Assembly (NCBI GenBank): GCA_015057375.1
Contig: SVEM01000008.1
Location: 1-58,586 of the forward strand
Direction: 5' to 3'
Source of the DNA: Lachnospiraceae bacterium
GTDB taxonomy: Bacteria > Bacillota > Clostridia > Lachnospirales > Lachnospiraceae
Length of the DNA stretch: 58,586 bases
In this document: positions 38,319 to 52,888 of the stretch, one piece after another
Layout: each line of letters starts with the position of its first letter
How positions within the stretch are numbered: the stretch's first letter is position 1
Program-made: the position numbers and the translations under genes
Notes under the pieces: generated by a model
Database searches by the model: none
Seen by the model: only the letters and a program-made list of their open reading frames with translations
What the model was told of the DNA's origin: nothing

Positions 38319-40769
38319 ATGGGTGCATTATTTACATGTATAGATTATAAAATTACTGATATGGTATTTTACGGAACGTTTAAGACAGACGTTTCTTTAA
38401 GTGTATCAGAATTATTTCTCAGAAATAAAAAGAATAACACAGAAGCCTGCATAGAGTACGGATATATAGAAGATGAAGGTGTCTATTATATTAAGGCAGA
38501 TATGTCGGATGCAAAGTTTGAGTTCGGTGCATGGTATCCTGTGTATAAAGATGCAGACGGAAACACCGGCTTCTGTAGTTTTTGCGGTATTCATAATGTT
38601 GATGAATATCTTCGTATGATAGAGCTTACGCCGGAAAGATTTTGTATAGATAATATGAGATGTTATTGCCTGGGTGTTGTTGATGGCGAATCTGCATTTG
38701 CAATAAGGAAAATTAAGGCTAGATCTAATTTTATATACAATACACCTGTTTATGTTAAAGGATATTCTGTATCCGGATATGATGTAAAGTTTGATCTGGA
38801 TAACAACTGCAATATGCTTTGTAATGAAGCAGAATTGTGGGTTGTATGCAGAGCTACAAAGCATGCGGAAAGAGTTGTGCTTGATGCCGAAAATATCAAT
38901 GCCGGACACATGAAGGTTGATTTTTCAAAATTTGTGATGGACAAGGCGTGTGATATATATGTGGCATGTAACAGAGAAGGCAGATTATATGTATCTAAGC
39001 TGATTCTTAAAAATGATAATTATGACGGAAGTTATGTTGTTCCAAGAAGTGACGACAGTGAAAGGTTTATTCTCAATATTACTGATGAGGATAAAGTATA
39101 CCAGCTGTTTTTCGACGATTATCTTGAGCTTTCCCAAAGATTTATTGACAGAGTTCATATGTACAGAGGTATATATAGAGGCTGTATAGATTATTTTTCT
39201 ATGAATGGCTCTATTCTTAAGCTGCGCATAAGTTTTGAAGTGGATATGTTTAATGATGTTAAACTTGTATTCCGTCACAGACGAGAAACAGGGGAAAAAA
39301 CTACGGGAGAATTCATATATCAGGGAAAATGTATAAAGGAAAACGGACACAAAAAGCAGTATGAGTATGTTATTGAATGCGATAAGATTGATTGGATTCC
39401 GCATAGATACGATTTGTTATTGATTGGAGAGCAGGATAATTACTCATATGAATTCAGACTTATTAAGAACGGAAATAAGATTAACAGAAAACTTGCAGAC
39501 ATATTCCGTTACGGATATACAACAGAAGATAACAGATTTGTTTTTATTACTGAAACCGTAAACGAAAATATTATAGTAGAGTGCCGCAATAAAACCGTAT
39601 ATGACGAAACGAAATACAGAAGCAATGAGAGATGGGCAAGGATTATATATCCGTTTGTAATGCCATTTCTTAAATTAAAGAAGACAGTTTTATTTTACGA
39701 AAAATTCTGTACGGCAGCTCAGGATAATTCTTATTATATGTTTGATTATGTTTACAAAAAGAATAATAAGAAAATCAGACCGCTTTATATACTAGAAAAA
39801 AGACAGCCTGTGTTTGAAAAACTGCAAGGTATGTATGGGAAAAATGTTGTTGACTTTATGAGTATAAAGCATCTTATATATTTGCAGGCAGCTGATTTGT
39901 TTGTGTCAACAGATTCTAAGCGTCATTGCTACAAATGGAGAGCAGGGAATACAAAGCTCATAAAGATGCTTGAGGATAAGCCGTTTATATTCCTCCAGCA
40001 CGGAGTGATTGGATTCAAAAAGGTTGATAATATATACGGAAAGAAGTTTGTTAACAGGGCAAATAAATTTGTTGTGTCATCTGAAGGGGAAAAGGAAATC
40101 GTGTCAAAGCACTTCGGTTATGATGATGAAGAGATAATAACTACCGGACTTGCAAGATGGGATGTTCTTGAATCAGAACCGGATGATCCGCCAATGATAT
40201 TTTACATGCCTACATGGCGTAACTGGATTTATGAAACAAATGAAGAGGAGTTTTTGGAAAGTGATTATTTCAAAGCCTTTTCGGAGATTCTTGGTTCGGA
40301 CAGGCTTAATGAGCTCCTTGTGAAAAATAATATTAATATGATATTTTGCTTCCATCCGAAGTTCAGACAGTTTCTGCATTGCATGAAAGTTGACAGTCCT
40401 AATATAAAAATGGCAAGTTATGATGACGGAATCAATGTAAATGAACTTCTTATGAGATGCAGCATGTTTATTACGGATTATTCAAGTGCATCATGGGATG
40501 TCGCATATATGGATAAGCCGGTTATTTTCTATCAGTTTGATTATGAAAAATATATGGAAAAACAAGGTTCATATATCGACATGGAAAACAATGTTTTCGG
40601 AAGAAGAGCTGTGGACTATAACGACTTTATTCAGGAAATTTCAGATGTTATTGAAAACGGATTTGAACTTTCGGAAGAAGAGAAAAATGCAAACATCTCT
40701 AACTTTAAATATAGAGATAAAAATAACCGAAAGAGAATTTATGAGCATATGCTGGAAATGCTTAAATAA
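38319..40769 (+). CDS. CDP-glycerol glycerophosphotransferase family protein with large N-terminal region
   Basis: The 816-residue protein carries the CDP-glycerol glycerophosphotransferase (TagB/TagF) domain in its C-terminal half: FLQHGVIGFKKVDN, GLARWDVL, FYMPTWRNW, ITDYSSASWDVAYMDKPVIFYQFD. The first 400 residues are beta-rich repeats with no family that I recognise. It should transfer glycerol-phosphate (or ribitol-phosphate) from the CDP form onto a lipid-linked chain at the membrane. RBS AAAGGA serves either ATG 38319 or TTG 38316. It opens the cell-surface polymer cluster. Confidence 0.85.
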   Translation: MGALFTCIDYKITDMVFYGTFKTDVSLSVSELFLRNKKNNTEACIEYGYIEDEGVYYIKADMSDAKFEFGAWYPVYKDADGNTGFCSFCGIHNVDEYLRMIELTPERFCIDNMRCYCLGVVDGESAFAIRKIKARSNFIYNTPVYVKGYSVSGYDVKFDLDNNCNMLCNEAELWVVCRATKHAERVVLDAENINAGHMKVDFSKFVMDKACDIYVACNREGRLYVSKLILKNDNYDGSYVVPRSDDSERFILNITDEDKVYQLFFDDYLELSQRFIDRVHMYRGIYRGCIDYFSMNGSILKLRISFEVDMFNDVKLVFRHRRETGEKTTGEFIYQGKCIKENGHKKQYEYVIECDKIDWIPHRYDLLLIGEQDNYSYEFRLIKNGNKINRKLADIFRYGYTTEDNRFVFITETVNENIIVECRNKTVYDETKYRSNERWARIIYPFVMPFLKLKKTVLFYEKFCTAAQDNSYYMFDYVYKKNNKKIRPLYILEKRQPVFEKLQGMYGKNVVDFMSIKHLIYLQAADLFVSTDSKRHCYKWRAGNTKLIKMLEDKPFIFLQHGVIGFKKVDNIYGKKFVNRANKFVVSSEGEKEIVSKHFGYDDEEIITTGLARWDVLESEPDDPPMIFYMPTWRNWIYETNEEEFLESDYFKAFSEILGSDRLNELLVKNNINMIFCFHPKFRQFLHCMKVDSPNIKMASYDDGINVNELLMRCSMFITDYSSASWDVAYMDKPVIFYQFDYEKYMEKQGSYIDMENNVFGRRAVDYNDFIQEISDVIENGFELSEEEKNANISNFKYRDKNNRKRIYEHMLEMLK

Positions 40770-40840
40770 GTTGCCTTATTTACACTTTGATGCTATAATA
40801 TAGCGTGTTTTATTATGCATCCCGTCAGGAGGAGAATGGA

Positions 40841-43099
40841 TTGGATATTAGTATTATAGTACCTTATCATGGTGAAGACATTTATGTCCGAGATTGCCTC
40901 GACAGTCTTTGCGAGCAAACATATGATAAGTTTGAAGTTATTTTTGTTGCTTCAGAAGTAGATATTCCTAATGAGATTATTGAATCATATAAAGACAAAC
41001 TTGACATAAAGGCATATCATACGGATGCTTCTCATGTATCAGCAGTAAGAAATGAAGGTCTGACATATGCAACAGGAGAGTATGTTGTATTCCTTGATTG
41101 TGATGATTATCTTGATGAATCATACATTTCAAGATTACACAGCCTGTGTGTATCAGAGGACCTTGATTTTGCGTTTGGATATATAGAGCATACATGGTAT
41201 AAGAGAAGCATTTTTATGGATAAAACAGCGGAGACTGTTTCGGATGAGGAAGAAAGTGATGAGGAAGAATCTGAAGAAACTGATGAAAATTTTCAGTTTG
41301 ATTTTGAAATAAATGATTCTGACAGTGATGAGGTTATAAGACAGAAGAAGCTTGCAGGTGCAGGAAAAGTTCTCATTTATAACAGAAAATCGATTCAGAG
41401 AATAACAGCTCTCGGTGTTATGTTTAACAAGAGTTTTATTGAGAAAAATGATATAACATTCCCTGAGAACCTTAAGTACTATTCTGACTGGGCATTTATA
41501 TGCAAAGCCGTTGATGTTGCAGAAAAATGTGATGGAGACAAACAGGCAAAATATATCAAGAGAATACACAATAACCCTATTCATTTTCCGTCCCTTGTAC
41601 AGGAAATAGGAAAAGATGATTTTGAACTTAGAGACAAAGCATATGCGGAAGTCAAAAGTGTTGTAAGAGATAACACATGTGATGCACGTGTGAAATTTGA
41701 TGTTAAACTTATTAATTATCTGGTATCAGAGGCAGCTCCGGCAGTTCGTAAAAATGAAGACAAGACATGGAGAAAGAAGCGACTTCCGGTTATGAGCAAC
41801 ATGTGCAAAGAGTTTTCTGGTAAGACGCTTAGGGAAATAAAATTTTATAAGAGACGTGTTATTAAGGCGATTGCAGCCGGTGATATTAAGAAAATATGTA
41901 AGCTGACAGGTAGAAAGAATCTCATAAACTGGGGAGTAAGAATATTATTAGGGCCTGACCGTCTTAAGATAATGAAGGAGTTTAATTACAAACACAGATA
42001 TCTTAAGCAGCCTATGCTTGATAATGTTGTTCTTTTGGAGAGCTTTTTTGGCAAGAGTTATTCGGACAGTCCTAAGTACATATTCGAAAAGCTGAATGAA
42101 TTATATCCGGGTAAGTACGAATATGTATGGATTCTTGATAAGAAGACTAAGCTGCCTTATCCTGCAAAACAGATAAAGAGATTTAGTTTTGCGTACTATA
42201 AGTATCTTGCCAGAGCAAAATATATTGTATTTAACAGTAGACAGCCTAAGTTTTTTGTGAAAAGAAAAGGCAACATTTTCCTTGAAACATGGCACGGAAC
42301 TCCGCTTAAAAAACTTGTTTTCGATATGGAAGAGGTAGTAAGTGCTTCTCCTATGTATAAGAAGACATTTTATATACAGTCGAGGTCCTGGGATTATCTT
42401 GTTGCTGCTAACGGATTTTCAGAGGAAGTATTTAAGAGAGCATTTGTATATGATAAGCCAATGTTAAAGTTCGGCTATCCTAGAAATGATATTCTGCATG
42501 CCGATGACCGTGAGATTATTGCAATGGATATCAAGAAGCGTGTAGGAATACCTAAAGATAAGAAAGTTATTCTTTATGCACCTACATGGCGTGATGATGA
42601 ATACTATGAGCAGGGTAAATACAAGTTTGACCTTAAGCTTGATTTAAGACAGATGCAGGAAAGATTATCAGATGAGTATGTTGTAATACTTAGAACACAT
42701 TATTTCATTGCAGATAATCTTGATGTTACCGGACTTGAAGGTTTTGTATATAACCTTAGTAAATATGACGATATTGCAGAACTCTATCTCATATCGGACA
42801 TATTAATAACAGATTATTCGTCAGTATTTTTTGATTATGCGAATCTTAAGAGACCTATGTTGTTCTTCACATATGATCTTGACAAATACAGAGATGTATT
42901 AAGAGGATTTTATATTGATATGGAAAAAGAGCTTCCGGGTCCGCTCGTATTTACTACAGATGAGATTATAGAGACCATAGAGAATATAGATTCCGTAAGT
43001 GCTAAATATGCAGCAGTTTATGATGAATTCTATGAAAGATTCTGTGGCTGGGAGGATGGACATGCCTCTGAGAATTGTATAAAAACAGTATTTAAATAA
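40841..43099 (+). CDS. GT2 glycosyltransferase fused to CDP-glycerol glycerophosphotransferase
   Basis: TTG 40841 has an excellent RBS (AGGAGGAGA) and gives 752 residues; GTG 40805 upstream has none. The N-terminal domain is a GT-A family 2 enzyme (SIIVPYHGEDIYVRDCLDSL, VVFLDCDDYLDES with the DxD motif). A highly acidic insert (SDEEESDEEESEETDE) follows at about 135-155. The C-terminal half is a TagB/TagF domain (FLETWHGTPLKKL, YAPTWRDDEYYE, ITDYSSVFFDYANLKRPM). The enzyme could add a sugar and then glycerol-phosphate in alternation, so the polymer may have a sugar-glycerol-phosphate repeat. That order is inference. Confidence 0.88.
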   Translation: MDISIIVPYHGEDIYVRDCLDSLCEQTYDKFEVIFVASEVDIPNEIIESYKDKLDIKAYHTDASHVSAVRNEGLTYATGEYVVFLDCDDYLDESYISRLHSLCVSEDLDFAFGYIEHTWYKRSIFMDKTAETVSDEEESDEEESEETDENFQFDFEINDSDSDEVIRQKKLAGAGKVLIYNRKSIQRITALGVMFNKSFIEKNDITFPENLKYYSDWAFICKAVDVAEKCDGDKQAKYIKRIHNNPIHFPSLVQEIGKDDFELRDKAYAEVKSVVRDNTCDARVKFDVKLINYLVSEAAPAVRKNEDKTWRKKRLPVMSNMCKEFSGKTLREIKFYKRRVIKAIAAGDIKKICKLTGRKNLINWGVRILLGPDRLKIMKEFNYKHRYLKQPMLDNVVLLESFFGKSYSDSPKYIFEKLNELYPGKYEYVWILDKKTKLPYPAKQIKRFSFAYYKYLARAKYIVFNSRQPKFFVKRKGNIFLETWHGTPLKKLVFDMEEVVSASPMYKKTFYIQSRSWDYLVAANGFSEEVFKRAFVYDKPMLKFGYPRNDILHADDREIIAMDIKKRVGIPKDKKVILYAPTWRDDEYYEQGKYKFDLKLDLRQMQERLSDEYVVILRTHYFIADNLDVTGLEGFVYNLSKYDDIAELYLISDILITDYSSVFFDYANLKRPMLFFTYDLDKYRDVLRGFYIDMEKELPGPLVFTTDEIIETIENIDSVSAKYAAVYDEFYERFCGWEDGHASENCIKTVFK

Positions 43100-43115
43100 T
43101 GCCGGGGAGAGTTTT

Positions 43116-43907
43116 ATGGCTAATAAGTTACACATAATTGCAAACTTTAAAAAATACAAATATCTTTTGTCGCAGCTTATCATTAAAGAAATAAAGCTTA
43201 AGTACAGAAGATCATATCTTGGAATTGTATGGACGCTTATAGAGCCGCTTCTTACAATGATAGTTCTTACCGTGGTTTTCTCAGCATTTCTTGGAAGAGA
43301 CGGAATTGCAGACGGATTACCATTCCCGGTATATATACTGGCAGGACGATTGTTGTACGCGTTTTTCAGTGGTTCAACAAAAGGTGCAATGAAGTCTGTG
43401 AGGACGAGTGCTCGTATGATAAAGAAGGTATATATACCAAAATATATGTATCCGCTTTCATCCATATTAGCTAACTTCCTTACATTCCTTATATCACTTA
43501 TAGTGCTTGTCGGAGTTGCAATTGTTATGAAAGTACAGCCTACCTGGTGGATGCTTGGTACGATTATTCCGATAATACAGCTGCTTATTATGTGTGTGGG
43601 AATGGGACTTTTGCTTGCTACCATATCAGTATTCTTCAGAGACTTTGAGTATCTGTGGGGTGTGGCACTCATGCTTATCATGTATACATGTGCTATATTC
43701 TACGAGACATCAAGACTCGGTGAGAGTGCATGGATTCTTGAAATAAATCCGGTATATGCGGTTATAAAGAATTTTAGAAATTGTATTTGTGGTGTTGGAT
43801 TTGATGCACCTTCAATGATATATGCAACCGTTTTTGGTGTTGTAACACTTATTTTAGGAGTAGTACTGTTTTATAAGAAGCAGGACGAGTTTATACTGCA
43901 CTTATAG
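43116..43907 (+). CDS. tagG: Polymer-export ABC permease, TagG-like
   Basis: The 263-residue protein has six membrane segments and the ABC-2 polysaccharide/teichoic acid pattern (EIKLKYRRSYLGIVWTLIEP, FVFPVYILAGRLLY-like middle, RDFEYLWGVALMLIMYTCAI, NPVYAVIKNFRNCI). It pairs with the ATPase that follows by 15 bases and flips the lipid-linked polymer outward. Confidence 0.88.
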   Translation: MANKLHIIANFKKYKYLLSQLIIKEIKLKYRRSYLGIVWTLIEPLLTMIVLTVVFSAFLGRDGIADGLPFPVYILAGRLLYAFFSGSTKGAMKSVRTSARMIKKVYIPKYMYPLSSILANFLTFLISLIVLVGVAIVMKVQPTWWMLGTIIPIIQLLIMCVGMGLLLATISVFFRDFEYLWGVALMLIMYTCAIFYETSRLGESAWILEINPVYAVIKNFRNCICGVGFDAPSMIYATVFGVVTLILGVVLFYKKQDEFILHL

Positions 43908-43922
43908 AAGGATGGAGATATC

Positions 43923-44759
43923 ATGGCAAAGAAAGTTGCAATTAAAGTTGAAAATGTCGGCATGAAATTTAATCTTAGTGCGGACAAGGTTGATAATATA
44001 AAAGAATATTTTATACGACTTATAAAGCGTAATATCACATACAAAGAGTTTTGGGCGCTTAAGGATGTTACTTTTTCAATAAACAAGGGTGACAGGGTTG
44101 CAATTCTTGGTTATAACGGAGCAGGAAAAAGTACACTTCTTAAGGTGATCTGTGGAGTTCTTAAACCTACGGAAGGTCATGTAAAAACCAATGGAAGAAT
44201 AGTTCCGCTTCTTGAACTTGGTGCAGGATTTGACCCACAGTATACCGGAGCAGAAAATATATATTTGTATGGTGCGGTGCTTGGATATACAAAAGAATTT
44301 ATTGATTCAAAATATGATGATATTGTTGAATTTTCAGAACTTGGCGATTTTATTCATATGCCGGTTAAAAATTATTCTTCAGGTATGAGGGCAAGACTTG
44401 GTTTTTCTATAGCATCGGTTGTTGATCCGGAGATTCTCATACTTGATGAAGTACTTTCTGTCGGAGACGTAATGTTTAGGAAAAAGAGTCTCAGACATAT
44501 TAACCAGATGATGAGTGAAGGCGTTACAGTTCTTTTTGTGTCGCATTCTGTGGCACAGATGAGGAAAATATGTAACAAGGGACTGTTCCTCGATTGCGGA
44601 ACTGTTAAGTTCTTTGGAGATCTTGAGGATGCCATAGAGCTTTATGAAAGTGATGAACAGTATCTTATGTCCAGAAAGAACAGAAGAAGGGCAAGAAGAA
44701 AACAGAGAAGATTAGAGAGATTACAGGCAGAAAAACAGGAAGGCGGTACAAATCAGTGA
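43923..44759 (+). CDS. tagH: Polymer-export ABC ATPase, TagH-like
   Basis: The 278-residue ATPase has Walker A GYNGAGKSTLLK, signature YSSGMRARLGFSI, Walker B ILILDEVLSVGD and switch His FVSHSVAQM. The LELGAGFDPQYTGAENIYLYG stretch is typical of teichoic acid and O-antigen exporters. A short basic tail replaces the sugar-binding domain. The stop overlaps the tagD start (GTGA). Confidence 0.9.
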   Translation: MAKKVAIKVENVGMKFNLSADKVDNIKEYFIRLIKRNITYKEFWALKDVTFSINKGDRVAILGYNGAGKSTLLKVICGVLKPTEGHVKTNGRIVPLLELGAGFDPQYTGAENIYLYGAVLGYTKEFIDSKYDDIVEFSELGDFIHMPVKNYSSGMRARLGFSIASVVDPEILILDEVLSVGDVMFRKKSLRHINQMMSEGVTVLFVSHSVAQMRKICNKGLFLDCGTVKFFGDLEDAIELYESDEQYLMSRKNRRRARRKQRRLERLQAEKQEGGTNQ

Positions 44760-45151
44760 AAAAAGTTATTACTTACGGAACTTATGATCTTTTACATGTA
44801 GGACATATCAATCTTTTAAGAAGGGCAAGAGAGCTTGGAGATTATCTTGTAGTTGTACTGTCTTCTGATGAGTTTAATGCTATTAAAAATAAAAAAGCAT
44901 ATCATCCTTATGAAGACAGAAAAATTATTCTCGAATCTATCAAGTATGTTGATGAGGTGCTTCCTGAATATACATGGGAGCAGAAGATTGATGATGTAAA
45001 GAACAACGACATCGATGTATTTGTTATGGGTGATGACTGGACAGGAAAGTTTGACTTCCTTAAGGATTATTGTGAGGTTGTATATCTTCCGAGAACAGAA
45101 GGCATATCTACAACTAAGATAAAGGAAGATCTTAATCTCAAAAAGGATTGA
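44756..45151 (+). CDS. tagD: Glycerol-3-phosphate cytidylyltransferase
   Basis: The 131-residue enzyme makes CDP-glycerol from CTP and glycerol-3-phosphate. Motifs: ITYGTYDLLHVGHINLLRRA (HxGH), GDDWTGKFDFL and RTEGISTTKI. Length and both nucleotidyl motifs are standard for TagD. The GTG start overlaps the TagH stop. It proves that the polymer contains glycerol-phosphate. Confidence 0.95.
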   Translation: MKKVITYGTYDLLHVGHINLLRRARELGDYLVVVLSSDEFNAIKNKKAYHPYEDRKIILESIKYVDEVLPEYTWEQKIDDVKNNDIDVFVMGDDWTGKFDFLKDYCEVVYLPRTEGISTTKIKEDLNLKKD

Positions 45152-45153
45152 TT

Positions 45154-46344
45154 ATGATTATCAAAGCATTTGCGAGAAAAACTGCTAAGGCAGCCTGTAT
45201 TGTATTATACAGAATAATGAATTTTGTATTGCCGGTAAACAGCCGCCTGATTGTCTTATCATCAAGTGTGGCAAAGAGTTATTCCGGCAATCCGAAAGCT
45301 TTGTATGAGGAGCTTGTAAGAGAAGGGCTCGACAACGAGTATCAGTGTGTATGGTTTTATGAAAAACATGCATTTGACATTCCGGGTCGACATATTCAGG
45401 TGAAATATGGCAGATTAAAGTACCTTTTCTACATGGCAACTGCAAAATTTTTGATTTTTGATGCAAGACAACCGGAGTTTCTGCGAAAGAGAAGTAAGAG
45501 CATATATTTGCAGACATGGCACGGAACTCCGCTTAAGAAGCTTGCGCTTGATATGGACACGGTCTTTATGGCAGGAGAGACTGATATAGAATCCTATAAG
45601 GAATCTTTCAGAAAGAATGCTTCCACGTGGGATTATCTTATTTCTCAGAATCCTTTTTCGACAGAAACTTTCAGAAGGGCATTTGACTTCAAAAAAGAAA
45701 TGCTTGAGACAGGATATCCGCGAAATGACAGCCTTTTCAGACATAATAACCCCGATGACATAAAAGAGATAAAGAATAAGCTCGGAATAGATGAGAATAA
45801 AAAAGTTATGCTGTATGCACCAACTTGGAGAGATGACAGTTCGTTTGGGTTGGGGAGATACCGCTATACGGCAGAGCTTAACATAGATGCTATGAAAGAA
45901 GCATTTTCCGATGAATATATTCTTATTATCAAGCATCATTATCTGGTTGAGGATAATACTGACTGGACGGTGTATGACGGATATGTGCGTGTGTTTGACC
46001 AGACTGTGGATATAGCACAGATGTATCTTATAGCGGACATACTTATAACGGATTACTCATCTGTTATGTTTGACTACAGTATTCTTAAGCGTCCGATGTA
46101 TTTTTACTGTTATGATCTTGAAAGGTATAAGGATGTACTTCGCGGATTTTATTTTGATTTTGAAAATAATGCTCCGGGACCGATATCACTTTCAACCACA
46201 GAGCTGATAGAGGATATTAAGAATGAGAAGCATGCTGCGTATTCAGATAAGTATGCAGAATTTGTTTCTTTATATAATCCGTGGGACAATATAAACAGCA
46301 GTAAAAATGTGCTGGATGTCATTTTTAAGAGAGATGGTCGTTAA
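45154..46344 (+). CDS. CDP-glycerol glycerophosphotransferase (TagB/TagF-like)
   Basis: The 396-residue protein has an N-terminal hydrophobic segment and the full TagB/TagF domain: LSSSVAKSYSGNPKALYEEL, LQTWHGTPLKKLALDMD, GYPRNDSLF, MLYAPTWRDDSSFG, ITDYSSVMFDYSILKRPMYF and PGPISLSTTE. It resembles its neighbour at 40841 in the C-terminal half. The start at 45154 follows AAAAGGA. Primase or polymerase activity cannot be separated by eye. Confidence 0.9.
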   Translation: MIIKAFARKTAKAACIVLYRIMNFVLPVNSRLIVLSSSVAKSYSGNPKALYEELVREGLDNEYQCVWFYEKHAFDIPGRHIQVKYGRLKYLFYMATAKFLIFDARQPEFLRKRSKSIYLQTWHGTPLKKLALDMDTVFMAGETDIESYKESFRKNASTWDYLISQNPFSTETFRRAFDFKKEMLETGYPRNDSLFRHNNPDDIKEIKNKLGIDENKKVMLYAPTWRDDSSFGLGRYRYTAELNIDAMKEAFSDEYILIIKHHYLVEDNTDWTVYDGYVRVFDQTVDIAQMYLIADILITDYSSVMFDYSILKRPMYFYCYDLERYKDVLRGFYFDFENNAPGPISLSTTELIEDIKNEKHAAYSDKYAEFVSLYNPWDNINSSKNVLDVIFKRDGR

Positions 46345-46349
46345 AACAT

Positions 46350-47462
46350 ATGAAAAGTATAGCTTATATTGCATTTGCGATAGTCTATTACTTGGCATGC
46401 ATCCTGCCTGTCAACAGAAACAGATTCTTCTGTGTGATGACGCACGATTCGAGTGAAGACAGTGGTGTAGGCGTTGTAATTAAAGAAATTAAATCGCGTA
46501 ATCCTTCGGCAGTATTTATTTATGTAACAAAGGAAGACAGGAAAATCTCATCACTTGTGAAGCTTATATTTGTAAAGTCTGTTATGCTTGCTACTTCACG
46601 TGTGGTGCTTATGGATAATGAATTTCTTCCGCTCGCATATGTAAAGAGACGAAAAAATGTACAGATAGTACAGTTGTGGCATGGTACCGGAACCATAAAA
46701 AAGTTCGGCCATGATGCAAACGAAGGAAGTATACTTAAACGAGTTATAAGAGCTGACAAGAAAATAACACATCTTATTGTTAATTCTGATTACACAAAAG
46801 AATTATATAAAGGTGCGTTTGGCGTAACGGATGACGTTGTATGTGTTACCGGAATTCCGAGAACCGATATGTTTTTTTCGGAAGAAGTTAAAGAAACGGC
46901 TATCAGTTCATTTTATAATGAATATCCTGAGTTAAAAGGAAGAAAACTTATATTATATGCGCCTACATTCAGGGATAATGAAGTTAAGAATCCAAGGTGT
47001 ATGCTTGACTTTGATAAGTGGGTTGAAAAAATGGGTGAGGATGTTGTTCTGCTTATAAGACTTCATCCACATGTTGCAGCTTTTTACAAAGAGGACACAA
47101 TTAGCTGTTATAATGGCAAAATTGTTAATGTTTCAGAATATAATGATGTTAATACATTGTTGTTTGTGTCGGATGCGCTTGTAACAGATTATTCATCCAT
47201 TATATTTGAGTATGTTGTTCTTGACAGGCCGATGTATTTTTACGCATATGACTTTGATTCGTTTGCTGATTCTGGCAGAGGATTCTATGAAGAATATACC
47301 GAATATGTTCCGGGAGAGGTTGTGTATACAACGGAAGAGCTTATTGCGGCCATACAGGGTGAAGACAGATACAGCAGTGTCAGAAAAGAGTTTGCAAACC
47401 ATGCATACAGATATATGGATGGATGCTCTACAAAACGTGTTGTAGATTTACTTGATATGTGA
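46350..47462 (+). CDS. CDP-glycerol glycerophosphotransferase, TagB primase-like
   Basis: The 370-residue protein is the shortest of the four: an N-terminal membrane segment (YIAFAIVYYLACILPV), then VQLWHGTGTIKKFG, GIPRTDMF, YAPTFRDNE, LLIRLHPHV and VTDYSSIIFEYVVLDRPMYFYAYD. Absence of extra domains makes a priming role, as in TagB, plausible. The RBS is weak and the gap to the previous gene is five bases, so coupling is likely. Confidence 0.88.
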   Translation: MKSIAYIAFAIVYYLACILPVNRNRFFCVMTHDSSEDSGVGVVIKEIKSRNPSAVFIYVTKEDRKISSLVKLIFVKSVMLATSRVVLMDNEFLPLAYVKRRKNVQIVQLWHGTGTIKKFGHDANEGSILKRVIRADKKITHLIVNSDYTKELYKGAFGVTDDVVCVTGIPRTDMFFSEEVKETAISSFYNEYPELKGRKLILYAPTFRDNEVKNPRCMLDFDKWVEKMGEDVVLLIRLHPHVAAFYKEDTISCYNGKIVNVSEYNDVNTLLFVSDALVTDYSSIIFEYVVLDRPMYFYAYDFDSFADSGRGFYEEYTEYVPGEVVYTTEELIAAIQGEDRYSSVRKEFANHAYRYMDGCSTKRVVDLLDM

Positions 47463-47476
47463 TTTTGGAGGTACTT

Positions 47477-48946
47477 ATGAAACAGTTAATGAGTAAGAAA
47501 ATAGGACTTATTTTTATTGCCATTCAGTTTTTATTAACAATAGGAATTATAGGAATTCTTTTATATGTGGATATGCTTCCTAACAAGTATCTTTTAGTTA
47601 TTGTGTTGGGACTTATCTTTGTTTTGTTATATACATTTTTCAGTCAGATGTCCAAGCGTCTTTATATACTGGGACGCGTGTTATCAGGTGTTTTTTGCGT
47701 GATGATGATATTTGCCGGCGGGTATATATTAAGAGGTTATATGGCGATTAACAATATGGCCAATTCCAATATAAGATACGATAAGCTTTCTGCAATAGTC
47801 CTTGTTGATGATAAGGCACAGACCATTAATGATGCTATTGACTATGAGTACGGAATCATATCTGCTATTGGCAGAGAACATACTGATGCTATGATTGATT
47901 CTATTCAGAAAGATTCAGGGAAGACTCTTGCTATAAATGAATATAATGATATCATGTCTCTCGTTGATGCATTGTATAATAAAGAGGTCGGTGTAATTAT
48001 ATTTAATGAAGCTTACAGAGAGACCATTATTGAGAACCGCAAAGGATTTGATACCGAGACAAGAGTACTTGGTAATTATCAGGTAGAGACAGTAGTTGAA
48101 GTTGAAGAAGAGGAAGATAAGACGGATGATCTTAAGAAACCTTTTGTTATGTATCTGAGTGGTATTGATACGAGAGGTTCCATAAGTCTTACAAGCCGAA
48201 GTGATGTTAATATACTTGCAGTAATTAATCCGGAAACGGCACAGATTCTTCTTATAAATACACCTCGTGATTACTATGTACCGCTTTCAATATCAAACGG
48301 TACATGTGATAAGCTGACGCATGCCGGAATATACGGTATTGACGTGTCTATTGAAACACTTGAGATGCTTTATGATGTTGATATCGATCATTATGTAAGA
48401 GTAAACTTCTCAGGTTTTGAAAAGGTTGTAAATGCACTGGGTGGTGTTGATGTATATTCAGATGTTTCGTTTACATCTGACTGGGGTCCAAGTTTTTCAA
48501 AGGGTTACAATCATGTTGATGGAAAACAGGCACTTGCATTCTGTCGTGAGAGACACCACTTTAGCGATGGTGACAGACAGAGAGGACGTAATCATCAGCA
48601 TATGATAGCTGCTATACTTGATAAGGCTACTTCACCGAAGATTATTACAAAGTATTCCAGCCTTCTTAAGAGTCTTGAGGATTCATTTGAGACTAATATG
48701 AAGACCAAAAGAATTACAAAATATGTGAAGTTGCAGATGGATGAAGGATTAAAGTGGAAGATTAATTCAATGAGCGTAGATGGTAAGGGCGGAAGCAATT
48801 ATACTTATTCCATACCATCACAGAAAGCTTATGTAATGTATCCTGATGAGGCAAGTATAGAGAATGCAAAAAAAGCAATCCAGAAAATACTTGACGGAAA
48901 GAAACTGAAGTCAGAAGAGGATTCCGGCATTAATAAAGAACAGTAA
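47477..48946 (+). CDS. LytR-CpsA-Psr (LCP) family polymer ligase
   Basis: The 489-residue protein has an N-terminal helical membrane region (three hydrophobic segments up to residue 85), a variable domain, and an LCP domain with ISLTSRSDVNILAVINPET, LLINTPRDYYVPL, GGVDVYSDVSF and CRERHHFSDGDRQRGRNHQ. The conserved arginines and aspartate for polyprenyl-pyrophosphate are present. LCP proteins attach teichoic acid-like polymers to peptidoglycan. RBS TTGGAGGT sets ATG 47477. It follows the transferases, so it is the probable attachment step of the cluster. Confidence 0.9.
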   Translation: MKQLMSKKIGLIFIAIQFLLTIGIIGILLYVDMLPNKYLLVIVLGLIFVLLYTFFSQMSKRLYILGRVLSGVFCVMMIFAGGYILRGYMAINNMANSNIRYDKLSAIVLVDDKAQTINDAIDYEYGIISAIGREHTDAMIDSIQKDSGKTLAINEYNDIMSLVDALYNKEVGVIIFNEAYRETIIENRKGFDTETRVLGNYQVETVVEVEEEEDKTDDLKKPFVMYLSGIDTRGSISLTSRSDVNILAVINPETAQILLINTPRDYYVPLSISNGTCDKLTHAGIYGIDVSIETLEMLYDVDIDHYVRVNFSGFEKVVNALGGVDVYSDVSFTSDWGPSFSKGYNHVDGKQALAFCRERHHFSDGDRQRGRNHQHMIAAILDKATSPKIITKYSSLLKSLEDSFETNMKTKRITKYVKLQMDEGLKWKINSMSVDGKGGSNYTYSIPSQKAYVMYPDEASIENAKKAIQKILDGKKLKSEEDSGINKEQ

Positions 48947-48977
48947 GGGTTTCTTCAGAAGTTTTGGAGGTAGTATA

Positions 48978-50957
48978 TTGATCAGCAGATGGATAAGGGA
49001 CGGGAGATTATCTGTATTTTTCAGAGTTCTCCTTGTCCTGCTTGATATAATAAGTATTAATCTTAGTTCATATCTGGCTCTTCTTATAAGATTCGAGCTT
49101 AAATGGACATCTATAGAAGCAGAATGTCTTATGGCGGTTAACAGAATGTGTTTGTTTAACACTATGATAACCGTGCTTATTTTTCTTGTATTCAGACTTT
49201 ATCACAGCTTATGGCGCTATGCCAGTGTAAGAGAAATGCTTAATATTATACTTGCATGTGTAACGTCAGCGTTCATTCATATAACATCGCTGTTTCTTTG
49301 TTATACCTATTTTACAAAAAGCTATATTGTAGTATATTCGCTTCTTTTGTTTGCATTTACTGTCATGATAAGATTTTCTTACAGAATATCCAGACACTTT
49401 TTCAGTCTGCACAGTCATGGTACTGAGACCAGAAGTACTATGATTATCGGTGCGGGTGAAGCCGGAAATATGCTTATGAATGAACTTGTCATGAGCAATC
49501 GTCTTGATGCACGTATAAGATGTTTTATAGATGATGACAAGGCAAAACATAACACATATATACATGGTGTTAAGGTGTATGGCGGCAGAGAAAGCATACT
49601 TGAAGCTGCAGCAAAATATTCGATTAACGAGATTATTATTGCCATTCCTACCGCATCTAAGAAAACCATCAGTGAGATTGTTGATATCTGTAAGCATACA
49701 AATGCAGAGCTTAAAACTCTTCCGGGTATGTATCAGCTTGTAAACGGAGAGGCAACTCTTGATAAACTGAGAAATGTTGAGATAGAGGATCTTCTCGGAA
49801 GAGATCCGGTAAAAGTAGATATAAAATCAATCATGGATTATGTGTGTGATAAGACCGTGCTTGTAACGGGTGGCGGAGGCTCTATAGGAAGTGAGCTTTG
49901 CCGTCAGATTGCAAAGCATGCACCAAAGAGACTTATTATTGTGGATATCTATGAAAATAATGCCTACGATATTGAACAGGAGCTTAAGCATGATTATCCG
50001 GGACTTAATCTTGTTGTACTTATTGCATCGGTAAGAAATACTGAAAGAATGGACAGTATATTTGCAAAGTACAGACCTGATATTGTTTATCACGCGGCAG
50101 CACATAAGCATGTTCCTCTTATGGAAGACAGTCCTAATGAGGCAATAAAAAATAATGTGTTCGGAACATATAAGACAGCCCTTGCTGCAGATAAATACGG
50201 CACGAAAAAATTTGTACTTATATCAACTGATAAGGCCGTTAACCCTACAAATATAATGGGAGCATCAAAGCGTATATGTGAAATGATTGTACAGATGTTT
50301 AGTAAACATTCTGATACTGAATTCTGTATAGTGCGTTTTGGAAATGTGCTGGGAAGTAATGGAAGTGTTATTCCGTTATTCAGAAAGCAGATAGAAGCAG
50401 GAGGACCCGTTACTGTTACACATCCTGATATAATCAGATATTTCATGACCATAGAAGAGGCGGTTTCTCTTGTGCTTCAGGCAGGAGCTTATGCAAAGGG
50501 CGGTGAGATATTTGTCCTTGACATGGGAAGACCGGTAAAGATAATCGATCTTGCACGAAATCTTATCAGATTGTCCGGATTTAAACCGGATGAAGATATT
50601 GAGATAAAGATAACGGGACTTCGTCCGGGTGAGAAACTCTATGAAGAAATGCTCATGGGAGAAGAAGGTTTACAGAGTACCGCGAACTCACTCATCCATA
50701 TCGGAAAACCAATTCTTTTTGATGAAGAAGAGTTTATTAAAAAGCTTGAATATTTATATGATCTTGCTTACAGCGAATCTGATAACATAAAGAGTGCTGT
50801 GGAGGAAATTGTTCCAACTTACAAGGAAAAAGATGAGGACAAGCTTAGGGATAAAAACCTTCAGGACGGTCAGTTTAAAAAGATTCAGGACAGAGAGATA
50901 ACTCATAAGAAACTTGTAAAAATGAGTGCTATGAGCAAACCGGAAGGAGACGAATGA
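48978..50957 (+). CDS. UDP-GlcNAc 4,6-dehydratase, membrane type (PglF/CapD/WbpM-like)
   Basis: The 659-residue protein starts at TTG 48978 (RBS GGAGG). Four membrane helices (about 15-125), a Rossmann-like domain with GAGEAGNML, then the SDR core: VTGGGGSIGSELCRQIAKH and LISTDKAVNPTNIMGASKR, where Met takes the place of Tyr, as in PglF-type dehydratases. It makes UDP-4-keto-6-deoxy sugar. With the aminotransferase and phosphosugar transferase that follow it would supply an amino-sugar starter. Regiochemistry is inferred. Confidence 0.9.
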   Translation: MISRWIRDGRLSVFFRVLLVLLDIISINLSSYLALLIRFELKWTSIEAECLMAVNRMCLFNTMITVLIFLVFRLYHSLWRYASVREMLNIILACVTSAFIHITSLFLCYTYFTKSYIVVYSLLLFAFTVMIRFSYRISRHFFSLHSHGTETRSTMIIGAGEAGNMLMNELVMSNRLDARIRCFIDDDKAKHNTYIHGVKVYGGRESILEAAAKYSINEIIIAIPTASKKTISEIVDICKHTNAELKTLPGMYQLVNGEATLDKLRNVEIEDLLGRDPVKVDIKSIMDYVCDKTVLVTGGGGSIGSELCRQIAKHAPKRLIIVDIYENNAYDIEQELKHDYPGLNLVVLIASVRNTERMDSIFAKYRPDIVYHAAAHKHVPLMEDSPNEAIKNNVFGTYKTALAADKYGTKKFVLISTDKAVNPTNIMGASKRICEMIVQMFSKHSDTEFCIVRFGNVLGSNGSVIPLFRKQIEAGGPVTVTHPDIIRYFMTIEEAVSLVLQAGAYAKGGEIFVLDMGRPVKIIDLARNLIRLSGFKPDEDIEIKITGLRPGEKLYEEMLMGEEGLQSTANSLIHIGKPILFDEEEFIKKLEYLYDLAYSESDNIKSAVEEIVPTYKEKDEDKLRDKNLQDGQFKKIQDREITHKKLVKMSAMSKPEGDE

Positions 50958-52186
50958 TGGATAATATTTTATTTTCTCCACCGGATATAACAGAAGAAGA
51001 AATAGAAGAAGTCGCAGAAGCGTTAAGAAGCGGATGGATTACCACAGGGCCGAGAACTAAGGAGCTTGAAAAAAGACTTCGTGGGTATTGTGGTGCGGAT
51101 GGATGTGTGTGTCTTAATTCTGCAACTGCTGCTATGGAGCTTACACTGAGACTTCTCGGAGTAGGAGAGGGAGACGAAGTAATAACAACCTCATATACTT
51201 ATACTGCAACCTGTAGTGTAATATGTCATGTTGGAGCAACCCCGGTTCTTGTTGATACCGGAAAAGATTCCTATGAGATTGATTATGATGCTATAGAAGC
51301 TGCCATAACAGAAAAGACTAAGGTTATTATGCCTGTTGATATTGCAGGTATTATGTGTGACTATGACAGAATAAAGGAAGTTTTGGAAAAGAAGAAGTCG
51401 CTATACAAGCCGGAAAACGATATGCAGGCAATGTATGACAGAGTGGTTATTCTTGCGGATTCGGCACACGGACTCGGAGCTTCGTATAAAGGACAGAAAA
51501 GCGGTTCCGTTGCTGATTTTACTGCGTTCTCATTTCATGCCGTAAAAAATCTTACAACGGCTGAGGGTGGTGCGATAACCTGGAAGCTTCCTTCATTTAC
51601 AGAAGATACGAATGAACATATATACAAACAGTATCAGCTTATGTCACTTCACGGACAGTCAAAGGATGCTCTTGCAAAAACAAAACTTGGCGGTTGGGAA
51701 TATGATATTGTTGCACCGTTATATAAGTGCAATATGACAGATATCATGGCAGCGATAGGGCTTGTACAGCTTAGCAGATATGAGTCATTGCTTGAAAGAA
51801 GAAAAGAAATAACCGATAGATATGATATAGGGTTTGCATCCATAACAGATAAAAAGATAAAAGTTTTATCACATGAAGATGATATGCGTATTGGAAGCAG
51901 GCACCTGTATTTGGTAAGAATAGAAGATGCGGACAGGGAATACTGCAACTGTGTTATAGAAGAAATGGCAAAAAGGGGAATACCGCTTAATGTACATTAC
52001 AAGCCTCTTCCAATGCTTACTGCATACAAAGATATGGGATATGATATTAACAACTATCCGAATGCATTCAATCAGTTTTGTAATGAGATAACCTTCCCGC
52101 TTCATACGAAGCTTACAAATGAACAGATTGAATATATAATAGACAATTTTAAAGAGGTTCTTGAAAATATATCAAAGGAGCTTTAA
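50954..52186 (+). CDS. DegT/DnrJ/EryC1 family sugar aminotransferase (PglE-like)
   Basis: The 410-residue PLP enzyme has the N-terminal SGWITTGPRTKELE, SATAAMELTLRLLGVGEGDE, the DSAHGLGASYKG region and the Schiff base Lys in FSFHAVKNLTTAEGGAI. It transfers amino from glutamate to the 4-keto sugar of the dehydratase. The start overlaps the dehydratase stop by four bases. The product is a UDP-2-acetamido-4-amino-2,4,6-trideoxyhexose if the inference holds. Confidence 0.92.
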   Translation: MMDNILFSPPDITEEEIEEVAEALRSGWITTGPRTKELEKRLRGYCGADGCVCLNSATAAMELTLRLLGVGEGDEVITTSYTYTATCSVICHVGATPVLVDTGKDSYEIDYDAIEAAITEKTKVIMPVDIAGIMCDYDRIKEVLEKKKSLYKPENDMQAMYDRVVILADSAHGLGASYKGQKSGSVADFTAFSFHAVKNLTTAEGGAITWKLPSFTEDTNEHIYKQYQLMSLHGQSKDALAKTKLGGWEYDIVAPLYKCNMTDIMAAIGLVQLSRYESLLERRKEITDRYDIGFASITDKKIKVLSHEDDMRIGSRHLYLVRIEDADREYCNCVIEEMAKRGIPLNVHYKPLPMLTAYKDMGYDINNYPNAFNQFCNEITFPLHTKLTNEQIEYIIDNFKEVLENISKEL

Positions 52187-52189
52187 TAA

Positions 52190-52888
52190 ATGTTAAATAT
52201 AGAAAACATTCTTATTTCATGGGAAGATTTGCCCGAAGAAATGAAAAATGACAAGGTAAAAATGTACTACGACATTCTTGATAAGAAGAGAAGCAGTCTT
52301 GTTATCAAGAGAGTATTTGATATTGTTGTATCATTATTTCTCATTGTTGTTTTATTACCTGTATTTGCAATTATTGCTTACATGATAAAGAAGGATTCAA
52401 AAGGACCGGTAATATTTCGTCAGACAAGAGTTACGGCGTATAATAGAGATTTTACAATATATAAGTTTCGTACAATGGTAAATGATGCTGACAGCCTTGG
52501 CAGCAGTGTAACAGTTCAGGGTGACAGCCGTATAACAGCCGTAGGAAATAAGCTTAGAAAATACAGACTTGATGAATTGCCACAGCTTGTAAATGTACTT
52601 TTCGGCGATATGAGTTTTGTAGGCACACGTCCTGAGGTAAGAAAGTATGTAGACCAATATTCTCAGTCAATGATGGCAACGCTTCTTATGCCTGCAGGGA
52701 TAACTTCCGAAGCAAGCATAGCTTATAAGGACGAAGATGAGCTTTTAAAAAATGCATTTGACTGTGATTATGTATATGTAAATAAGATTCTTCCTGAGAA
52801 AATGAAATATAATTTGCGAAGTATAAGAAAATTCAGTATAGAGCGTGATATACTGACCATGATAAAAACTGTGATTTCGGTAATATAG
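52190..52888 (+). CDS. Phosphoglycosyl transferase, PglC-like (bacterial sugar transferase)
   Basis: The 232-residue monotopic enzyme has a re-entrant hydrophobic segment (VVSLFLIVVLLPVFAIIAYM), then KDSKGPVIFRQTR, YKFRTMV, LRKYRLDELPQLVNVLFGDMSFVGTRPEV, with the Asp-Glu dyad (RLDELPQL). It loads a phospho-sugar onto undecaprenyl phosphate, the first membrane step. Four bases follow the aminotransferase stop. No TagO-type enzyme is in the window, so this may start the polymer. Confidence 0.92.
   Translation: MLNIENILISWEDLPEEMKNDKVKMYYDILDKKRSSLVIKRVFDIVVSLFLIVVLLPVFAIIAYMIKKDSKGPVIFRQTRVTAYNRDFTIYKFRTMVNDADSLGSSVTVQGDSRITAVGNKLRKYRLDELPQLVNVLFGDMSFVGTRPEVRKYVDQYSQSMMATLLMPAGITSEASIAYKDEDELLKNAFDCDYVYVNKILPEKMKYNLRSIRKFSIERDILTMIKTVISVI

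Follow-up and report, generated by a model that had tools for sequence, protein, structure and literature searches.

The synthesis of secondary wall polymers has been reported to start with a tagO homologue in every case studied up to 2015, Streptococcus pneumoniae excepted (PMC4973711). In Bacillus and Staphylococcus, wall teichoic acid is built by the TagO-TagA-TagB-TagF-TagD-TagGH pathway, whereas the teichoic acid of the pneumococcus (mitis group) starts without TagO. Spr0092, Spr1654 and Spr1655 have been assigned to the synthesis and transfer of its starter, 2-acetamido-4-amino-2,4,6-trideoxygalactose (AATGal), and streptococcal repeat units are described as ribitol-phosphate units with phosphocholine (PMC4649388). 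The pneumococcal wall polymer is said to be joined directly to peptidoglycan via AATGal-alpha-1-phosphate, with no linkage unit, and LCP proteins to be the likely ligases (PMC5727136). The zwitterionic polysaccharides of Bacteroides with AATGal, PSA and putative others, use a route of dehydratase, aminotransferase (WcfR) and transferase (WcfS) to undecaprenyl-diphosphate-AATGal (Und-PP-AATGal) (PMC13063421), and a screen of >8000 genomes found wcfR homologues in diverse bacterial orders as putative zwitterionic capsules (PMC10167101). Among clostridia, the PSII locus of Clostridioides difficile directs a wall polymer with a CDP-glycerol glycerophosphotransferase homologue; its authors found no TagO and left the initiating enzyme open, and the available part of their text names no AATGal enzymes (PMC4973711). 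Here we describe an 11-gene cluster in a stretch of 58,586 nucleotides (the window) from a Lachnospiraceae bacterium, which, judged from its gene content and homologies, probably makes a glycerol-phosphate wall teichoic acid started by AATGal instead of the N-acetylglucosamine-N-acetylmannosamine (GlcNAc-ManNAc) linkage unit of TagO and TagA.

The window is one contig of genome G000, an assembly of 79 contigs that is 86.85% complete. Its positions 38,319-52,888 carry 11 genes, compactly arranged and all read in one direction, as follows (bits and E values are those of the family models named).

38319..40769, + strand: gptA, divergent CDP-glycerol glycerophosphotransferase (residues 453-812) with an N-terminal region of ~450 amino acids (PF04464 9.5e-43)
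40805..43099, + strand: GT2-glycerophosphotransferase fusion, TagF-like over 197-757, candidate second-sugar transferase and primer/polymerase (PF00535 5.6e-19, PF04464 2.7e-116)
43116..43907, + strand: TagG-like permease of an ATP-binding cassette (ABC) transporter, adjoining the TagH-like ATPase (PF01061, ABC-2, 7.2e-16)
43923..44759, + strand: TagH-like ABC ATPase (NF010065 221.9 bits and NF010066 213.8 bits, under cut-offs of 538 and 320)
44756..45151, + strand: TagD, glycerol-3-phosphate cytidylyltransferase (TIGR01518 197.3 bits, cut-off 165.4)
45148..46344, + strand: gptC, TarF-like glycerophosphotransferase (NF041712 338 bits, under cut-off 550)
46350..47462, + strand: gptD, glycerophosphotransferase with the TarL model as best match (NF041713 187 bits, under cut-off 1000)
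47459..48946, + strand: predicted LCP glycopolymer-peptidoglycan ligase of Cps2A-type architecture (PF03816 1.7e-36; NF051849 339.6 bits over 13-480, under cut-off 650)
48978..50957, + strand: UDP-GlcNAc 4,6-dehydratase, PglF type, with an N-terminal CoA_binding_3 region (PF02719 2.8e-123, PF13727 4e-16)
50954..52186, + strand: Spr1654-type aminotransferase (DegT), predicted to make UDP-AATGal (PF01041 1.7e-93; 6EWJ 563.9 bits)
52190..52888, + strand: Spr1655-type phosphoglycosyl transferase, predicted to make Und-PP-AATGal (PF02397 1.0e-55)

Counted from mechanical start codons, some of them GTG or TTG, the intergenic gaps are in order 35, 16, 15, -4, -4, 5, -4, 31, -4 and 3 bp; for gptA an ATG lies at 38,319, three bases downstream of the mechanical TTG start. 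Four 4-bp overlaps are thus found within the cluster, one of them between dehydratase and aminotransferase, and since all gaps fall between -4 and +35 bp, the last three genes, the starter trio, are very likely on the same transcript as the polymer genes. Scans for promoters (52 predicted, against a shuffle mean of 63.7) and terminators (5 against 6.3) were uninformative. The cluster is bordered by a putative esterase gene on one side and on the other by a convergent GTPase gene, which we take to encode the translation factor BipA/TypA.

With the Bacillus and Staphylococcus pathway the cluster shares TagD, TagF/TarF/TarL-like transferases, a TagGH-like exporter and an LCP protein; in contrast to that pathway it has the AATGal-type trio in place of TagO and TagA. 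TagD, TagG/H and four glycerophosphotransferase domains had already been named in an earlier note made from the sequence, and all are present. TagD scores above its curated cut-off, and the exporter ATPase is best matched by the two teichoic acid exporter models. The four PF04464 domains (9.5e-43, 2.7e-116, 9.6e-111 and 1.6e-78) all retain the TDYSS motif and two motif histidines, which lie at 562 (HG) and 680 (HP) in gptA and whose role is known from studies of TagF. Over the TagF-like part of the fusion protein the alignment to 3L7I, which we take to be TagF of Staphylococcus epidermidis, reaches 5e-106, and the DCDD of its GT2 domain is invariant in the seven aligned genus sequences, the window's included. 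The product of such genes might also be a secreted or loosely held capsule that is not linked to peptidoglycan, made by a TagF-like polymerase of the Cps3D type: the glycerophosphotransferase domains match Cps3D (8QOY), among other solved structures, and capsules too use ABC export. We consider this unlikely, since the LCP gene lies inside the operon in all eight genus loci that are not interrupted by a contig end, and also in three further loci (L109, L168 and L170).

The identity of the starter is read from the trio. Against the Protein Data Bank (PDB) the aminotransferase has 6EWJ as its top match, at 563.9 bits (E 1.9e-168), with the runner-up at 208 bits. 6EWJ, 6EWQ and 6EWR are structures of Spr1654, ten residues of which have been named as likely holders of UDP-AATGal (PMC5936713), and all ten are found in the window enzyme: Tyr84, His196, Val198, Gln234 and Lys236 of Spr1654 correspond to its positions 83, 195, 197, 235 and 237, and Lys241, Tyr249, Asn342, His344 and Tyr345 to 242, 250, 346, 348 and 349 (numbering carried over by hand from the alignment with 6EWJ). 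Nine of these ten positions are invariant across ten aligned aminotransferases, the window's among them, and position 349 is Tyr or Phe. Identity with the Streptococcus homologues is 59-63%. The phosphoglycosyl transferase, which has an LDELPQ motif at 127 and 8T53 as its best PDB match (85 bits), occurs paired with the aminotransferase in 52 of 80 named loci. In the 14 of these that are from Streptococcus, the gene adjoining the Spr1654 homologue encodes a protein 53-58% identical to it over nearly the full length, and we infer from adjacency and numbering that this gene is the Spr1655 homologue. The dehydratase (motifs GGGGSIG and STDK) is closest to WlaL (PglF) 5BJU, at 322 bits, and gives 146 bits with the UDP-GlcNAc C6 dehydratase 2GN4, presumably PseB; its assignment follows from the PglF-type comparison, the likeness to Spr0092 being one of description only. 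Because the aminotransferase is by far nearest to Spr1654 and the transferase is so similar to its streptococcal partner, AATGal is the likely starter of the window polymer. The earlier note had closed the cluster with these three genes under the names Pgl-type and PglC-like; the genes are there, the names have to give way to Spr1654 and Spr1655, and the pneumococcal-type amino sugar that it proposed is strengthened by both comparisons. That three enzymes would suffice without PglD, as it had also argued, has a precedent, since pglF with wcfR and wcfS of B. fragilis is reported to yield Und-PP-AATGal in E. coli, seen at m/z 1111.5 [M-H]- (PMC13063421); PglD would not be needed because the 4-amine of UDP-AATGal stays free.

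The trio could alternatively make the C4 epimer UDP-4-amino-N-acetylquinovosamine (UDP-4-amino-QuiNAc), the precursor of bacillosamine, in the manner of Campylobacter PglFED or Bacillus EpsC/N/M/L (EpsN and EpsL were likened to the trio by description only), with acetylation supplied from elsewhere. The dehydratase step is common to both routes, and among solved structures this enzyme is nearest to WlaL/PglF, which would suit the epimer. The two later enzymes speak against it, the aminotransferase with 564 bits to Spr1654 as opposed to only 86 bits to 4ZTC, which we take to be PglE of C. jejuni, and the transferase with 83 bits to the diacetylbacillosaminyl-1-phosphate transferase 8E37 as opposed to its high identity with the streptococcal partner. 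PglD is not in the cluster, and the NeuD/PglD matches in the G000 genome all stay under the cut-off; one of the ten genus genomes, the window's own included, has such a protein above cut-off. Taken together, the bacillosamine route appears quite unlikely.

If AATGal is the starter, the PglF-type dehydratase would form UDP-4-keto-6-deoxy-GlcNAc, the Spr1654-type aminotransferase would convert it to UDP-AATGal with its 4-amine left free, and the Spr1655-type transferase would give Und-PP-AATGal. The GT2 domain of the fusion protein may then add a second sugar, for which the glucose added by Spr0091 in the pneumococcus is a precedent (PMC4649388). The glycerophosphotransferases would add and extend glycerol-phosphate from the CDP-glycerol supplied by TagD, the finished chain would be exported by the TagGH-like ABC transporter, and the LCP protein would transfer it to peptidoglycan via AATGal-1-phosphate. 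All steps except that of the GT2 domain are drawn from gene content and homology; we infer the chemistry throughout, which donor and acceptor the GT2 domain uses, and how the four glycerophosphotransferases divide the work. Unlike in the pneumococcus, one operon combines the trio with an ABC exporter, TagD and four glycerophosphotransferase domains. None of the 11 cluster proteins matches a LicD or choline family, a flippase or a Wzy-type repeat-unit polymerase, the remaining genome not having been searched for these. Since the cluster includes an ABC exporter but no pair of flippase and polymerase, AATGal should by pathway logic be used once per chain and not once per repeat. That each repeat contains AATGal, so that the polymer would be zwitterionic as pneumococcal teichoic acid and Bacteroides PSA are, is very unlikely: the same kind of enzyme pair does serve repeat-unit polymers in Streptococcus (PMC4649388) and, as WcfR/WcfS, in Bacteroides (PMC13063421), but no flippase, Wzy-type polymerase or LicD is matched by the 11 proteins, and an ABC-exported chain should use its initiating sugar only once. 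PSA differs from the polymer predicted here in being a Wzx/Wzy repeat-unit capsule (PMC13063421).

The earlier note had stated that TagO and TagA are absent and had suggested looking for them elsewhere in the genome. Neither is found among the 11 cluster genes, and to that extent the statement stands; for TagA it fails genome-wide, as two proteins of the TagA/WecG family PF03808 are encoded outside the cluster. For TagO the G000 assembly is of little help, since it has no PF00953 match whatsoever, MraY included, and the absence of TagO therefore rests on the congeners. PF00953 matches occur in eight of the ten genus genomes, seven with one gene and G002 with two (that of G004 is cut by a contig end), and seven of the eight congeners at least 90% complete have a single one. 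Of the nine genus proteins, three were scanned, that of G001 and the two of G002; they are MraY-like, with 90-95 bits to TIGR00445 (cut-off 192) and at most 34 bits to the WecA model; most of the remaining six genes have neighbours resembling those of the G001 gene. TagO is thus probably absent from the genus. Within up to 8 kb around this MraY-like gene (L062-L070) no mra cluster is seen; by our own reading it mostly stands beside ABC transporter genes, and in L062 a gene of the LPG_synthase_TM/TIGR00374 family lies next to it.

One of the two PF03808 proteins, on contig C49 (L043:5983-7917), is divergent and lacks the PDG motif, which we take to be the site of the catalytic Asp. It has one counterpart in eight of the nine congeners and two in G007, and in all four aligned proteins (L043, L059, L060, L061) PAE or PGE replaces PDG. 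It was considered as the missing partner of the cluster and rejected, because in these four loci it lies away from the glycerophosphotransferase genes and the motif is lost; it is perhaps a non-catalytic family member. In L043 it is downstream of a LytR_C-domain protein, and genes nearby look to us FtsEX-like.

The arrangement is kept within the genus. The trio lies on one contig with tagD and glycerophosphotransferase genes in eight of the ten genomes (the window, G001, G002, G003, G004, G005, G006 and G009); in G008 the contig stops just past the trio, and a 5.6-kb contig of G007 has the transferase in two pieces. Two genus loci are among the named loci, from Lachnoclostridium sp. UBA2905 (L071) and an uncultured Lachnospiraceae metagenome-assembled genome (MAG; L072). 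At E <=1e-40, gptD has matches in 15 of 392 genomes of the order, the window's own included, and five of these are outside the genus (G348, G150, G373, G377 and G365; 42-47% identical along almost their entire length). In G348 and G150, which belong to one second genus, the order is tagG-tagH-tagD-gptD-LCP-aminotransferase-transferase with no adjoining dehydratase, and L109, a named Clostridia MAG contig, is arranged like G348; this is the order of the loci L109, L168 and L170. G373 and G377 (L167, L171) have tagD with gptC and gptD, without the trio; within the same 20 kb stands a phosphoglycosyl transferase of another kind (473-490 amino acids), which could be an alternative TagO-free starter. 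In G365, gptD has no adjoining tagD and the Spr1655-type transferase is on a separate contig. A tagD of at least 86% identity lies within the fetched flanks of at least 3 of the 80 named loci (L071, L072 and L109), a lower bound because many flanks end at contig ends. A tree of 56 joined aminotransferase-transferase pairs (11 of 67 were dropped as duplicates, near-copies or partial) recovers the genus (8 rows, 100/100), L109/L168/L170 (100/100) and Streptococcus (100/99) as clades and places six Bacteroidota pairs in a separate group, on an unresolved backbone. For groups chosen with the tree already in view, the approximately unbiased (AU) test neither rejects nor shows a clade of the genus with L109/L168/L170 (p 0.057) or with Streptococcus (p 0.17).

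Several points weigh against an AATGal-started, TagO-free teichoic acid. The product of Spr1654 was itself assigned to AATGal by homology and the composition of the pneumococcal polymer, no UDP-sugar substrate was available for its co-crystals, and the soluble Spr0092 dehydratase domain gave no detected product, as reported in PMC5936713. In the window, the TagH-, TarF-, TarL- and Cps2A-type models all score under their curated cut-offs. The other of the two PF03808 proteins is a canonical TagA-family member, encoded on contig C52 inside what appears to be another glycan gene cluster. No dehydratase stands beside the aminotransferase-transferase pair in the clusters of L109, L168 and L170, and the searched literature yielded no wall-polymer chemistry for the genus. 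Lastly, among 12 other genomes of the family with related glycerophosphotransferases, 3 of which have a Spr1655-type transferase, 11 have a single PF00953 gene and G396 has two, counted by family match alone, with or without that transferase. If TagO and the AATGal starter excluded each other, a TagO would be expected in relatives with tagD and glycerophosphotransferase clusters that lack the starter; the prediction failed, and the argument was dropped because the single PF00953 gene is common across the family regardless of the transferase.

gptA is the least conserved cluster gene, the window protein being 38-45% identical to six genus members, compared with ~90% for TagD. Its N-terminus of ~450 amino acids belongs to no recognisable family; profile matches in the PDB were confined to marginal ones to salivary proteins, taken as chance, and a single-sequence AlphaFold2 (AF2) model was useless (pLDDT 34.5). 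In G002 (L049/L176) the front part is swapped: gptA and the fusion gene give way to genes for a protein weakly similar to PMT_2 (under cut-off), a member of the Stealth family and a different glycerophosphotransferase. At the site that the short gptC occupies alone in the window (45148-46344), L047, L049, L051, L052 and L053 carry an extra GT2-glycerophosphotransferase gene, and L048 and L050 a longer gptC with a GT2-like fusion; since relatives have such additions at this site, sugar decoration may vary between species. A fifth glycerophosphotransferase of G000, on contig C6 (C6:22248-23348; L046:9256-11358), is GT2-like at its N-terminus and 40% identical to the cluster fusion protein, with no further cluster homologue in the 20 kb around it.

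Taken as a whole, these data incline us, with some reserve, towards a class of TagO-independent wall teichoic acid in gut Lachnospiraceae, in which an ABC-exported glycerol-phosphate chain would be joined directly to peptidoglycan through AATGal 1-phosphate, with no GlcNAc-ManNAc unit, by combining a pneumococcal starter with Bacillus-type building and export; it would be conserved across one genus or more and be present in a second. To find AATGal enzymes in gut bacteria is in itself nothing new, given the reported spread of wcfR homologues across diverse orders (PMC10167101). The parts are known, and it is their combination that seems not to have been described before: the earlier note knew of no polymer with this enzyme set, and in the literature searched, with subscription journals outside its scope, none of the matches listed describes a glycerol-phosphate teichoic acid of Lachnospiraceae that starts with AATGal. 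If the proposal is true, it would be a second exception to the TagO start, phylogenetically distant from the first and with a different polymer and exporter, and starter modules would be exchangeable between wall polymer pathways. Wall polymer synthesis in these gut bacteria would then be predicted to be insensitive to TagO inhibitors, and there would be a testable answer to the question of how clostridia without TagO start their wall polymers.

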